A stretch of DNA of 45,894 nucleotides, from contig DAOWGM010000019.1 of the NCBI GenBank assembly GCA_030637515.1, forward strand, positions 1 through 45,894, read 5' to 3'. How positions within the stretch are numbered: the stretch's first letter is position 1; every line of letters starts with the position of its first letter. Below the pieces are notes generated by a model that made no database searches, was not told the origin of the DNA, and saw nothing but the letters and a program-made list of their open reading frames with translations. A program made the translations under genes and the position numbers. Below, piece by piece: positions 40,793 through 45,894 of the stretch. Source of the DNA: Bacteroidales bacterium. GTDB taxonomy: Bacteria; Bacteroidota; Bacteroidia; Bacteroidales; UBA12077.

Positions 40793-41989
40793 ATGGAAAA
40801 TGTATCACAAAGAGTTTCTTCGCTGTCTATTTCTCAAACACTGGAAATGAGTCAGAAAAGTCGAGATTTGCAGGCTAAAGGTGTTGATGTTATTAATCTT
40901 AGTGTTGGTGAACCTGATTTTAATACACCAGACCATATAAAAGAAGCAGCAATTAAAGCTATTAATGATAATTACAGCCATTATTCTCCGGTACCTGGTT
41001 TCCCTCAATTATTAAAAGCGATTTCAGGAAAGTTAAAAAGGGAAAATAACCTTGATTATGGTACAGACCAGATTATTGTTTCTAACGGAGCAAAACATTC
41101 ATTGGCAAATGTAATTTTAACGTTGATTAATAAGGGTGATGAAGTTATTGTACCTGCTCCATATTGGGTAAGCTATGTTGAGCTTGTTAAACTTGCCGAA
41201 GGGAAAAATGTAGTTATTGAAACTTCAATAGATTCAGACTTTAAAATTACACCGGAACAGCTAAAAAATGCAATTACACCAAAAACTAAAGCATTGTTTT
41301 TATGCTCTCCATCAAACCCATCAGGAAGCTTATATTCAAAAAATGAGTTAGAGGCAATTGCAAAAGTAATTGAAAATTGCGGAGTAGAAATGTATATTTT
41401 ATCGGATGAAATATATGAACATATAAACTTCGTTGGAAAGCATGAAAGTATAGCGCAGTTTGAATCAATTAGAGATAAAGTTATTATAATTAATGGTGTT
41501 TCAAAGGGATATGCAATGACTGGTTGGAGAATTGGTTATATCGCAGCTCCAAAATGGATTGCAAAAGCGTGTAATAAGATTCAGGGACAGTTAACTTCAG
41601 GTGCTTCTTCCGTATCTCAGATGGCTTCTGTTGCAGCACTTAATATTGAAACTCCAAGTATTGCCAATATGGTATCAGCATTTAAACGTAGAAGAGATCT
41701 TGTAGTGAAATTGGTGAAAAATATTGATGGGTTTAAGGCAAATGTGCCAGAAGGAGCATTTTATTTATTTCCTGAAGTAAAATCACTTTTTGGAAAATCA
41801 GATGGTGAAATAACAATAAAGGATTCTTCTGATTTATCAATGTATATTTTAGAAAAGGCTCATGTTGCAACAGTTCCGGGTTCTGCTTTTGGATCGCCAG
41901 ATTATATAAGATTTTCATATGCTACTTCAGATGAAAAGTTGATTGAAGCAATGACAAGAATGAAAAATGTAATAGATAAGCTCAAATAA
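40793..41989 (+). CDS. Class I PLP aminotransferase, aspartate aminotransferase Ib type
   Basis: A 398-residue fold type I aminotransferase. It shows GVDVINLSVGEPDFNTPDHI, YSPVPGFPQLLKAISGKL, PYWVSYVELVKLAEGKNV, SPSNPSGSLYSK, ILSDEIYEHINF, and the PLP lysine in NGVSKGYAMTGWRIGYIA, followed by the substrate-binding Arg region FSYATSDEKL. The pattern is the thermophile/Bacillus-type (Ib) aspartate aminotransferase that moves the amino group between aspartate and glutamate; broader activity, including prephenate, is known in the group. It is a single gene closed by the terminator at 41991-42020. Confidence 0.88.
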   Translation: MENVSQRVSSLSISQTLEMSQKSRDLQAKGVDVINLSVGEPDFNTPDHIKEAAIKAINDNYSHYSPVPGFPQLLKAISGKLKRENNLDYGTDQIIVSNGAKHSLANVILTLINKGDEVIVPAPYWVSYVELVKLAEGKNVVIETSIDSDFKITPEQLKNAITPKTKALFLCSPSNPSGSLYSKNELEAIAKVIENCGVEMYILSDEIYEHINFVGKHESIAQFESIRDKVIIINGVSKGYAMTGWRIGYIAAPKWIAKACNKIQGQLTSGASSVSQMASVAALNIETPSIANMVSAFKRRRDLVVKLVKNIDGFKANVPEGAFYLFPEVKSLFGKSDGEITIKDSSDLSMYILEKAHVATVPGSAFGSPDYIRFSYATSDEKLIEAMTRMKNVIDKLK

Positions 41990-41990
41990 T

Positions 41991-42020
41991 AAAAAGACCG
42001 GTTTTAAACCGGCTTTTTTT
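41991..42020 (+). terminator. Intrinsic terminator after the class I aminotransferase
   Basis: Five A, then CCGGTT (41998-42003), TTA loop, AACCGG (42007-42012), then C and seven T. The T run ends on the stop codon of the convergent phosphatase gene, so it may serve both transcripts. Confidence 0.85.
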
Positions 42021-43869
42021 ATTCATGTTTTTCAATGTGTTTACACATAGTTGCGTATAATTCTTTAATATTTATAGGTTTTGAAATGTAATCGTCACAA
42101 CCTGCTTTAAAACTTTTCTCTTTTTCAGATGACATAGTAAAGGCAGTTTGCACAATAACAGGAATTTCTTTATCAATATGTTTAATTTGAGTAGTAGCTT
42201 CAATTCCATCCATTATTGGCATTCTTATATCCATTAGTACTAAATCAATATCAGGATTAGTTCTGAAGAGCTTAACAGCATCTTTACCATTTTCTGCATG
42301 GATGATATCAACGTTGGTTTTTTCAAGTGCTTTCCTAAGTAACATGAAATTGGCTTCATCATCTTCAGCAATTAAGACAGTTTTTCCAGCCCAATCGTAA
42401 TCAAGTTTTGATTTAACTTCTTCTTTTCCAAATGCAATTCTAAATCCAATTATTAATATATCATCAAGTTGTTTTCGTTCACCTTTCCATTGTTCAAATG
42501 ATTGCTCAATAATATATTTTTGTTGTGCAAGAGATTTTGCATTGTGTTCAACTAACAGCTTTTTAAAATTTGCTGAAAGATATTTCCTGCCATCTGGTCC
42601 GCCAAACTGGTCAATGAAACCATCAGAGAAAATATAAATTAAATCATCTTTTTCAAGCTTAATTACATTATTCTGAAATGATTCCTTTGCACGACGGTGG
42701 ATTCCAATTGGCATTCTGTCAGGTTTTGTTTCCTGTAATTCGTTGTTTCTGATTAAATACAATGGGTTGTTTGCTCCGGCATATTCAAGCGATTTATCTT
42801 CATGATTTAATATGCAAAGTGCAATGTCAAGACCATCGCGACTTTCTCCAGTTGAGCCCGTTTGTCGTAATGAACTAATAATATGAATTCTTAGCTCATT
42901 TAATATTTCATTTGCATGAATATTCGAATTCTTATTAATAATCTCATTTAGGAATGTTATACCCAACATACTCATTAAAGCTCCCGGAACACCATGACCT
43001 GTGCAATCGGCAGCTGCAATAAATATTTTATTATCTACTTGTTTTGTCCAGTAAAAATCACCACTAACAATGTCTCTTGGTTTATAAAATATAAAATGTT
43101 CCGACAGTAAGTGTTGTATAAACCTGTTAGGCGGTAATACCGCAGACTGGATTCTCTTTGCATATAAGATGCTATCTTCAATCTTTTTGTTTTGCTTACG
43201 AACAATATCGTGCTGTATCTTAAGCTTATGTTTTTGCTCGGCAATCTTATCACCTTGTTTCATAATAAAATTCAGATCTTCTTCCATTCGTTCTTTTTGT
43301 CTGGCCATTTCGGATTTTTCCTCAGCCATTGTATCTCTTTCTTTCTGAATTTTTGTTCTCTGGCTTGTTACAACATCGCCTTGTTTAATATAAAAATTAA
43401 CATCCTTTTCTAAAGTAGATATTTTATTCTCGTGTTCCTCTATTTTTTTATTTAGTTTTTCTTCATTTAATCTGAGCTTGGTAATATCGTGCGCTAAGAG
43501 TACATAACCTAATACTTCACCTCTTTCAGATTTTAATTCAGAAATTTTTGCGTATAAAAAGAATGTATCTAAATTTTTCGAAATTGTAAATTCAAATTCC
43601 TGATTAATGGTAGTTTCCTTAAGCTTAATTAAGTGCTTTTCAAAGTTTAATTTAAAATCATTACTAATGAATACTTCCTTAAAATTCTTATTTAATGATT
43701 TCTCAGGATTTATATCAATAATATTATGCCTTTCAGGTAATCTGATATCAATGTATTTTTCTTCTGTATCAAGGATAAAAAGATAATCTGCTAAGGATGA
43801 AATAGTATAGAAAATATTTTCTTTTAACGATTCCAGGTTTGTATTTATCGAATTATTTGATTTACCCAT
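42019..43869 (-). CDS. PAS / coiled coil / SpoIIE phosphatase / receiver hybrid protein
   Basis: A 616-residue soluble signalling protein. Order: PAS-like domain (about 12-130), long coiled coil (130-240) with FYIKQGD (159-165) and FIMKQGD (201-207) repeated 42 residues apart, SpoIIE-type PP2C phosphatase (about 245-478), and a C-terminal receiver (about 495-612). The phosphatase metal ligands are present: SGDFYW (D271), ADCTGHGVPGA (D288), FSDGF (D416), LDDI (D469/D470). The receiver is intact: EDDE (D503/D504), MDIRMP (D547), SKP (K597). It should dephosphorylate a Ser/Thr-phosphorylated partner under control of the PAS and receiver domains. The SiaC-like protein of the same operon is the obvious candidate substrate. 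It starts 8 bases behind the single-domain receiver gene. Confidence 0.93.
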   Translation of the reverse strand: MGKSNNSINTNLESLKENIFYTISSLADYLFILDTEEKYIDIRLPERHNIIDINPEKSLNKNFKEVFISNDFKLNFEKHLIKLKETTINQEFEFTISKNLDTFFLYAKISELKSERGEVLGYVLLAHDITKLRLNEEKLNKKIEEHENKISTLEKDVNFYIKQGDVVTSQRTKIQKERDTMAEEKSEMARQKERMEEDLNFIMKQGDKIAEQKHKLKIQHDIVRKQNKKIEDSILYAKRIQSAVLPPNRFIQHLLSEHFIFYKPRDIVSGDFYWTKQVDNKIFIAAADCTGHGVPGALMSMLGITFLNEIINKNSNIHANEILNELRIHIISSLRQTGSTGESRDGLDIALCILNHEDKSLEYAGANNPLYLIRNNELQETKPDRMPIGIHRRAKESFQNNVIKLEKDDLIYIFSDGFIDQFGGPDGRKYLSANFKKLLVEHNAKSLAQQKYIIEQSFEQWKGERKQLDDILIIGFRIAFGKEEVKSKLDYDWAGKTVLIAEDDEANFMLLRKALEKTNVDIIHAENGKDAVKLFRTNPDIDLVLMDIRMPIMDGIEATTQIKHIDKEIPVIVQTAFTMSSEKEKSFKAGCDDYISKPINIKELYATMCKHIEKHE

Positions 43870-43877
43870 AATTGTAA

Positions 43878-44246
43878 TTAGTTAAGTAAAATACTTTTTA
43901 CCAGTTTTAGAACGTTGTCTACATCAATAGGCTTTTGAATGAGATCTGTTGCACCAGCTTCAAGAGCTGCTTTTCTGATATTGGTATCATTCTTGGCAGT
44001 TATAAAAACTACAGGAATATTTTTCATATCAGGTTTGCTCTTTAATTCTTCTAATACCATAAAGCCGTCTTTGTCAGGCATCATAATATCAAGAAGTATT
44101 AATGATGGCTTTTTGGCTTCGAGGAAATCAAAAGCTTCTTTTCCACTAACTGCTACAGATGATTTTATACCTTCTGTTTCCAGTATACTTTGTAAAAGGA
44201 AAATATTTGTGTTCGAGTCATCTACTATTAAAACAGTTTTTTCCAT
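43878..44246 (-). CDS. Single-domain response regulator (CheY-like)
   Basis: A 122-residue receiver with no output domain: acidic pocket VDDS (D9, D10), phosphoacceptor D53 in LLDIMMPDKDG, Thr83 in FITAK, Lys105 in IQKPID. All functional residues are kept. It lies between the DUF4476 gene (14 bases upstream) and the PAS/SpoIIE/receiver gene (8 bases downstream), so it is most likely a phosphate carrier or allosteric partner in this operon. No histidine kinase is in the window; one must act from elsewhere. Confidence 0.93.
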   Translation of the reverse strand: MEKTVLIVDDSNTNIFLLQSILETEGIKSSVAVSGKEAFDFLEAKKPSLILLDIMMPDKDGFMVLEELKSKPDMKNIPVVFITAKNDTNIRKAALEAGATDLIQKPIDVDNVLKLVKSILLN

Positions 44247-44260
44247 AAAATGTTGGGTAA

Positions 44261-45337
44261 TTAGAGTGTTTTACTATTTATATAATTAAGAAGATTCTTT
44301 TTACTATTCTCAAAATCCAGAGCTTGGCTAACTGTTATATAATAATCAGATTGATTAATAGTAAATTCATATGCATATTTAGCAATTTCCAGTTTAGAAT
44401 TTTCATAACTAAATTGTTCAATTATACCTTTTATTTGAAGGGCAGTAAAACATTTTTTTGACTTAATAAGATGCTTTGCTGTATTTATTTTATTTGTATT
44501 GAACTTCTCGTTTTTTATTGTTGTAATAACATTTCTATATTCCGTATTGCTTACTTTACAAGTATTAACAACTATTGATTCTTGATTTCCGAGGGTTTCC
44601 ATAAACCTGTTTCTTCCTGATGGAGTATTGAAAATTTGTTTCATTTCAATATAATTATCAAGATCAAATACTGATTTTTGAGCTATAGATGCAAATTTTA
44701 GTTTAAAACCTTCTGATTGAAATAAGGACCCAATTTTCATAAGATCCGAAGTTGGCAAACAATTACTCTTGATTAAATTCGCAGCTTTGCTATATTTTTC
44801 CTGATCATTGTTTATGTCATATAGTTGACTGACAATGTAATTAAAGCTATTTTTAGAGATTACCTGTGAACAGTTCTTTGTTCCTTGGTAATTCTTATAT
44901 GAGGGATAATTATAGTTCGGGAATTCGAAAGTATTTGTTCCCGGATTTTCATTACCAGTATTGTTGTCGTTTTCCTCTTTATTGTTTATAAAATCATATA
45001 AACGAAACGCATTTGAGAAATATACGAATGCATCGAAAACTTCATAAAAATTTTGTTTATCAATAGTTCGTTTGTATGCTGTTTTTGTAAATTTTAATCG
45101 TGCAACGTCATTTTCATACAAAAATGCAATATCTTTTACTTGCTTACTTGATAAGCAAAAACTTCTAAATAACTGTTTTGAAATCTGCAATCGAGAATTA
45201 TCATTTTGTTTGCTTTTTATTAGCTGATACTTCTGTTTAAATTGCTGATCAGAAATTTTTTGCTGACAATTAGGGTTTTGTGCATATAACAAACCCGTAA
45301 ATGCTGTTAGAAGTAGTAGAACAACAAATCTTTTCAT
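44261..45337 (-). CDS. Secreted protein with three DUF4476 repeats
   Basis: The 358-residue protein has a signal peptide (MKRFVVLLLLTAFTGLLYAQ) and three copies of the DUF4476 helical unit at about 24-117, 156-248 and 260-355, recognisable from RLQISKQLFRSFCLSSKQVK, KAANLIKSNCLPTSDLM and NTAKHLIKSKKCFTALQIK. Each copy starts with a Cys and has a second one 36-37 residues later (C24/C61, C156/C193, C260/C296), suggesting one disulphide per repeat in the periplasm. A Pro/Asn/Tyr-rich linker lies between copies 1 and 2. DUF4476 is a mainly Bacteroidota domain with no known function. It is embedded in a signalling operon, so it may be a periplasmic sensor or effector for it. Confidence 0.85.
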   Translation of the reverse strand: MKRFVVLLLLTAFTGLLYAQNPNCQQKISDQQFKQKYQLIKSKQNDNSRLQISKQLFRSFCLSSKQVKDIAFLYENDVARLKFTKTAYKRTIDKQNFYEVFDAFVYFSNAFRLYDFINNKEENDNNTGNENPGTNTFEFPNYNYPSYKNYQGTKNCSQVISKNSFNYIVSQLYDINNDQEKYSKAANLIKSNCLPTSDLMKIGSLFQSEGFKLKFASIAQKSVFDLDNYIEMKQIFNTPSGRNRFMETLGNQESIVVNTCKVSNTEYRNVITTIKNEKFNTNKINTAKHLIKSKKCFTALQIKGIIEQFSYENSKLEIAKYAYEFTINQSDYYITVSQALDFENSKKNLLNYINSKTL

Positions 45338-45399
45338 AAACGAAAATTTAAAAGAGTGAAATGGATATTTACTTATTGCAAGTAAAAAGATCGAATTAA

Positions 45400-45768
45400 T
45401 TATAATTCCTCGTATTCAATGTATTTAAAAGGAATTCCAATTATTGATTCAAAATATTGTCCTGATTCTAATACATCAAGATCACCTTCTTCATAAAACC
45501 AATTTACTAAAATATTACTATTGTCAGGATTATTTTCAAGAAGTCGCAGCATTTCAAGTATGAACTTTGAAGAGCTGGTATTAAAGTACTCAAGTTTTAT
45601 GTCAACCCGTATTTCGTTGGATGTAAATTCTTTTGTCCAGTCAAGAAGAGGCTTGAAAAATCTAGCAGCATCCTCAGGAATTGAACGCCCCTCAATTTTT
45701 AGAACACCATTTGTACTTAAAGCAACGGAAGGAGTCTTCTCTGTTTCTTTTAAAACTAAATCTTTCAT
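45400..45768 (-). CDS. siaC: SiaC-like regulatory phosphoprotein (DUF1987)
   Basis: A 122-residue protein of the DUF1987/SiaC family. The pattern TPSVALSTNGVLKIEGRSIP, EDAARFFKPLLDW and KLEYFNTSSSKFILEMLRLL is characteristic; Thr64 in YFNTSSSK corresponds to the threonine phosphorylated in Pseudomonas SiaC. In Pseudomonas aeruginosa SiaC is phosphorylated by SiaB, dephosphorylated by the PP2C phosphatase SiaA, and when unphosphorylated activates the diguanylate cyclase SiaD, setting aggregation. Here it is first of four minus-strand genes ending in a SpoIIE phosphatase; a SiaB-like kinase would be expected upstream, beyond the right edge. No SiaD-like cyclase is present. Confidence 0.87.
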   Translation of the reverse strand: MKDLVLKETEKTPSVALSTNGVLKIEGRSIPEDAARFFKPLLDWTKEFTSNEIRVDIKLEYFNTSSSKFILEMLRLLENNPDNSNILVNWFYEEGDLDVLESGQYFESIIGIPFKYIEYEEL

Positions 45769-45894
45769 ATTTTATTATCCTAACTAAAGTTTAACCCAAT
45801 TTATTAAAATTCTTGCAAAAAAAGTAAAAATCAATACTAATTTACAATTTATTTATAAATATATGCAAAAAGTTTGACTGAATGTTTCAAATAA

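Follow-up and report, generated by a model that had tools for sequence, protein, structure and literature searches.

The window is the whole of the 45,894-nt contig DAOWGM010000019.1 of a Bacteroidales assembly, and this report concerns a minus-strand operon whose first gene, siaC, lies 126 bases from the contig end at position 45894. Overall, we judge it likely (a probability of roughly 0.62) that the operon supplies a phosphatase and its substrate, one half of a SiaABC-type partner switch, with the kinase acting in trans, the phosphatase gated by receivers, and a target that is not a cyclase. Judging from its genes, the locus is a new variant of the SiaABC partner switch, distinguished by a receiver-linked soluble phosphatase and a kinase-less operon. 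Its predicted core is SiaC plus the phosphatase-receiver protein, and a DUF4476 protein encoded between them is probably accessory. An initial annotation of the same DNA had proposed that phosphorelay signals set the phosphorylation state of SiaC through a four-gene partner switch of a new layout. That interpretation is partly supported, being right in direction, minus DUF4476, with the stand-alone receiver optional and the novelty reduced to that of a variant.

Four open reading frames (ORFs) on the minus strand, with intergenic gaps of 62, 14, and 8 bases, encode a SiaC-family STAS-like phosphoprotein of 122 amino acids (45400..45768; PF09345), a secreted triple-DUF4476 protein (44261..45337; three stretches of PF14771), a stand-alone CheY-like receiver (43878..44246; PF00072), and a soluble SiaA-like phosphatase (42019..43869). 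By Pfam and a PDB match, the phosphatase comprises a weak PAS region (residues ~25-133), a coiled coil, a SpoIIE/PP2C domain (279-477), and a C-terminal receiver (498-606). This four-gene observation is confirmed with respect to coordinates, gaps, and domains, the Pfam E values being 7e-32 for SiaC, 1.1e-30 for the triple DUF4476 protein, 7.2e-29 for the receiver, and 3.9e-21 (SpoIIE) and 4.8e-27 (Response_reg) for the phosphatase. The claim that the DUF4476 protein is secreted likewise agrees with a signal-peptide-like N-terminal stretch read from its sequence.

Alignment identifies the window SiaC as a true SiaC with a predicted phosphorylatable threonine. The match to PF09345 is full length (profile positions 2-120 of 120; 110 bits versus a cut-off of 24.5), and the two PDB matches at E <= 0.01, 6kko and 6k4f, are both Pseudomonas aeruginosa SiaC (E 1.4e-11). 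Thr64, proposed in the initial annotation as the candidate phospho-acceptor, is aligned with Thr68 of the latter, the residue shown to be phosphorylated there (PMC7647112). The motif YFNTSSSK, including Thr64, is kept in 18/18 orthologues, the window counted. These were found in 18 of 20 genomes of the genus (completeness 70-100%): the assembly analyzed here and 17 more, the latter at 83-98% identity; the next-nearest SiaC paralogues are at most 50% identical. No orthologue was found in G001 (78% complete) or G004 (86% complete). Across 295 genomes of the order, the window SiaC was matched at E <= 1e-40 in only four, all of the same genus. With SiaC groups defined by their first residues, the mean pairwise identity is 90.9% (n=18) for the window group, and 91.1% (n=17) and 88.0% (n=16) for the C8 and C181 groups, which have a kinase alongside; group C8-2 is at 68.0% (n=15). 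In a tree of 53 of 95 SiaC sequences, the window group joins two orphan SiaC (support 92/78) and then the C8 type (85/69), both weakly; deep support is weak and branches are long, so that no sister group is securely named.

The linked phosphatase is, by sequence comparison, nearer SiaA than any other solved protein. Among the 235 PDB sequences matched, 6k4e ranks first (E 1.7e-39 over residues 204-478); this entry is the SiaA PP2C domain (PMC7647112). The matches that follow, among the 60 listed, are mostly receivers. D271, D288, D416, and D470, which we take to be the metal-binding aspartates, are aligned with aspartates of 6k4e and are invariant in 15/15 phosphatases; only the first 106 amino acids of the L191 phosphatase are present, and that of L197 is split by unresolved bases. 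The highest mean hydrophobicity over 19 residues is 1.38 in the window phosphatase, which fits its earlier description as soluble, and 2.4-3.0 in three other SpoIIE proteins adjoining SiaC in our own genome; among the relatives measured, one (L201), whose phosphatase reaches 1.89 near the N-terminus, is a possible exception. The SiaA of Pseudomonas has a membrane-bound sensor part, and the window phosphatase lacks a strongly hydrophobic segment.

The C-terminal receiver of the phosphatase is present in 15/15 readable sequences, and its D547, T575, and K597 are found in 14/14 readable. In the stand-alone receiver, D9, D10, T83, and K105 are kept in 13/13 and D53 in 12/13. The phosphatase N-terminus is more variable: a window-like PAS part occurs in 13 genomes, L195 has none, and L190, L197, and L199 (genomes G006, G019, and G003) have a degenerate receiver in place of the PAS part, with the stand-alone receiver lost. 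The degenerate receiver is without the usual acidic pocket, and its descent from the stand-alone receiver is not claimed, the likeness being weak and a profile match being obtained in L199 alone.

Operon loci were taken from 17 relatives (stretches of 3.6-10.5 kb) and annotated with profiles built from the window, our own genome, and one relative's YceG. Seventeen genomes, the window and 16 relatives, are readable past SiaC (the L198 contig stops after it), and in all 17, SiaC and the phosphatase are linked and co-directional, either directly or with the receiver or DUF4476 genes between them. The stand-alone receiver is present in 13/17, whereas the DUF4476 gene is intact in only 5/17 (the window, L185, L191, L192, and L193). 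Remnants of the latter lie between siaC and the receiver in four more (L187, L188, L194, and L195); these were detected by tblastn against 12 gap sequences only, with best E values from 6e-4 (L187) to 1.5e-10 (L188), and those of L187, L194, and L195 match the start of the protein alone. The expectation that the four genes stay together in relatives held for SiaC and the phosphatase but failed for the DUF4476 gene, and the stand-alone receiver is missing in 4/17. The core is therefore two-part, and the four-gene layout is one local version of it. A four-gene unit was rejected as the functional module on the strength of the DUF4476 counts, and we propose that this protein is exported and dispensable and plays no role in how the switch works. 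A scan across genome contigs gave the same operon picture in 12 close orthologues, some of them, judged by length, on the same contigs as the fetched loci; two of the 12 (L072 and L077) are fragments without SiaC on the contig. The other rows of that scan match mostly via the receiver, and the two inspected (L094 and L116) had no SiaC match.

No SiaB was found in the window, which ends 126 bases upstream of siaC, or in the stretches of the 17 relatives. The initial annotation suggested a siaB gene to the right of position 45894, but that place is occupied by a divergent yceG/mltG gene in 17/17 relatives (the family was named by Pfam in three loci), and a SiaB just past the contig end is thus unsupported. 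The assembly that contains the operon (4.1 Mb; completeness 91%, contamination 7.7%) nevertheless has six SiaB matches over the cut-off, a single tandem gene accounting for two, along with 16 SiaC and 23 SpoIIE matches; the kinase would therefore act from elsewhere. All 20 genus genomes carry 4-9 SiaB matches, and a kinase in trans is therefore always at hand. Within the stretches fetched, the neighborhoods of the 16 SiaC genes include SpoIIE and SiaB in two cases (C181 and C94), SpoIIE only in three (the window and two at C182), SiaB only in three (C8, C55, and C142), and neither in eight. The SiaB-linked SiaC closest in sequence to the window SiaC is the C8 type, at 46%; the C8-type SiaB-SiaC pair is present in 17/20 genus genomes and was not found in G004, G009, or G014.

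The SiaC repertoire of the genus is large, at 9-19 per genome, and the 16 of our own assembly are spread over 14 loci. Tandem SiaC duplicates lie side by side at G000:C139 (L027:5715-6605) and G000:C182 (L022:5189-6014), and a tandem two-domain SiaB lies beside a SiaC at G000:C55:61212-62285 (L023:6204-7310). Judged by open-frame length (345-392 amino acids), such a tandem SiaB occurs in 18/20 genus genomes.

A SiaD-type target for the window SiaC is unlikely because the assembly, at 91% completeness, has no GGDEF match; the absence of a cyclase asserted for the operon thus extends to the whole assembly. Of the 20 genus genomes, 11 including our own have no GGDEF match, ten of these have the window-type SiaC, and the remaining nine genomes have one or two matches. 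To the extent that the assemblies are complete (70-100%), a SiaD-like target can be excluded in the 11. An output through cyclic di-GMP is accordingly unsupported. As SiaC is nearly unchanged across the genus and 11/20 genomes have no GGDEF match, the switch must do something else. In the mechanism that we envisage, the phosphatase would dephosphorylate the adjoining SiaC at Thr64, and its C-terminal receiver, together with the stand-alone receiver and PAS part where present, would let a histidine-kinase phosphorelay raise or lower this activity. One or more SiaB proteins encoded elsewhere in the genome would phosphorylate SiaC, and unphosphorylated SiaC would bind and regulate a protein other than a diguanylate cyclase. 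That a phosphorelay sets SiaC phosphorylation is something we infer. In favor of this proposal, phosphatases like that of the window (E <= 1e-70 to the PP2C-receiver part, most matches spanning the PP2C part alone) occur in 55 of 149 Bacteroidales genomes, every one of which is among the 63 SiaC-bearing genomes (Fisher 1e-32, not corrected for kinship); eight SiaC-bearing genomes have none.

Several observations weigh against this proposal. No C8-type pair turned up in G009 (70% complete) or G014 (96%), both of which carry the operon, and this weakens the C8-type SiaB as the one kinase; therefore no SiaB is named here as the kinase. With 23 SpoIIE matches in the genome, the adjoining one need not be the sole phosphatase of the window SiaC. 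The PAS domain of the initial annotation is matched weakly (best E 0.017) and falls under the Pfam cut-off. The stand-alone receiver is absent in 4/17 genomes (L190, L196, L197, and L199), and that of L201 has N at the D53 position and so is without the phospho-acceptor Asp; the L201 phosphatase may also be membrane-bound.

Elsewhere in the order, a concrete candidate target is offered by a link between SiaC and TerB-ABC exporters. At C181 (G000:C181, L019:2618-9357), the gene order is SpoIIE(GAF/PAS)-SiaB-SiaC-TerB/ABC2 exporter by Pfam, and the 14 other genus genomes fetched keep this order, the exporter being recognized by its start and length (one is cut by a contig end). The C181-type operon appears to be a complete SiaABC switch with the exporter, as candidate output, in place of SiaD. 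The same operon is found in ten sampled genomes of other families (L220-L244). That the TerB-ABC2 exporter is also the target at the window, whose SiaC would then be an extra phosphorelay-driven input, is possible but unlikely. Of the 149 order genomes, 57 have both SiaC and the exporter (E <= 1e-100), five the exporter only, six SiaC only, and 81 neither (Fisher 4e-28, again uncorrected for kinship). Forty exporter loci outside the genus were chosen non-randomly among the matches listed, ten being of the C181 type at the head of the ranking and 30 distributed among the remainder. SiaC is next to the exporter in 15/40, with one more past a 71-amino acid opposite ORF (L242), as compared with a rough chance expectation of 0.5% per locus assuming 3,500 genes. 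The SpoIIE-SiaB-SiaC-exporter order accounts for 10/10 of the C181 type, and 6/30 of the others have the exporter convergent with a SiaC-SiaB pair. However, SiaC is missing from the stretch in 24/40 of the sampled loci, and no exporter gene was recognized alongside the window SiaC or its orthologues in the relatives, a judgment based on the size and start of the ORFs rather than on the exporter profile. In addition, the co-distribution is non-specific: because SiaA-like phosphatases track SiaC as well or better, in 55/55 genomes, the exporter link is less special. In the exporter tree, co-directional loci form one clade (support 100), and convergent loci sit among the unlinked. In a second case in our own assembly, a SiaC with a C-terminal extension adjoins an ABC2 exporter from another branch (G000:C123, L029:2234-5960); this branch is otherwise unlinked, which also speaks against the exporter as the target at the window.

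A decoy function, in which the window SiaC itself regulates no target, is unlikely. With the phosphatase active, unphosphorylated SiaC would occupy a SiaB made elsewhere, another SiaC would escape phosphorylation, and a separate SiaB-SiaC module would in this way receive a phosphorelay signal through the operon. The excess of SiaC over SiaB matches is consistent with kinase sharing, as are the SiaB-SiaC pairs without SpoIIE alongside (C8, C55, and C142) and the SpoIIE-SiaC loci without SiaB (C177 and C182). The nearest SiaB-linked paralogue is of the C8 type, and the tree places the two groups close, if weakly. Yet two genomes that have the operon yielded no C8-type pair, and conservation runs through all of SiaC, even a C-terminal stretch unlike that of the C8 type, which hints instead at a dedicated partner. 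It is very improbable that SiaC is a passive leftover and that the phosphatase-receiver protein has its substrates among other SiaC or STAS proteins; despite the many SpoIIE proteins and the 16/19 sampled SpoIIE loci without SiaC next door, SiaC has kept its 90.9% mean identity and an invariant Thr64 while other operon parts were lost. On a wider scale, a tentative and doubtful picture is that Bacteroidales SiaC has been rewired from diguanylate cyclases to TerB-domain ABC-2 exporters, with the 9-19 SiaC per genome in this genus served by a few shared SiaB kinases and with operons such as that of the window adding phosphorelay-controlled phosphatases as inputs.

The phosphatase-plus-substrate reading rests in part on likeness to SiaABCD of P. 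aeruginosa, as described in PMC7647112 and PMC8457831. Shared are the phospho-Thr motif (YFNTSSSK in the window, YLNTSSIK in Pseudomonas), a SiaA-type PP2C with a preceding helix, and the presence of phosphatase and SiaC in one operon; in contrast, the window operon has neither siaB nor siaD, its phosphatase is soluble with a PAS-like part and a receiver, and the assembly has no GGDEF match. A receiver is also wired to a PP2C acting on a STAS-type protein in HptB-HsbR-HsbA, a system named in PMC7647112, and in the Campylobacterota REC-PP2C-STYK proteins (PMC9239204), but those target STAS proteins rather than SiaC and have an N-terminal receiver and a fused kinase. In the window, the receiver is C-terminal and a second one stands alone. 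The C181-type operon (L019; L220-L244) also unites a SiaA-like phosphatase with SiaC but, unlike that of the window, includes its kinase, and an exporter is its probable output.

The layout is shared with other loci: a SpoIIE-receiver protein beside SiaC without SiaB recurs at C182 (L022), at L282 in the same genus, and at L275 and L278 in two other families; the window operon is therefore a soluble, genus-restricted form. These loci encode TPR-SpoIIE-receiver and then one or two SiaC, the TPR part being shown for L022 alone. They differ in their membrane-anchored sensor (shown for L022), in having the phosphatase gene first, and in lacking a stand-alone receiver between. Three of the eight SpoIIE-receiver hybrids fetched adjoin SiaC (L275, L278, and L282; contig ends truncate L280 and L281), as compared with 0/11 SpoIIE proteins without a receiver (L284 is cut on one side).

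DUF1987 proteins are described as widespread and suggested to modulate adjacent proteins in PMC8457831, the main text of which does not contain the word "bacteroid". No paper on SiaC in Bacteroidota was found in the literature searched, most subscription papers falling outside it, and the only SiaC target found described is a diguanylate cyclase. The stronger interest of the operon is its non-cyclase output: it is a compact test case, in an uncultured Bacteroidales genus, without the switch's one known target beside it. As a small soluble phosphatase-substrate pair, it also lends itself to studying receiver gating of a SiaA-type phosphatase. Downstream, the operon is bounded by a convergent gene outside the switch (40793..41989, plus strand, by ORF position), presumably an aminotransferase by its looks. 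Its orthologue is in the same place in 12/13 relatives whose contig reaches that far, and a different gene is found there in L201.

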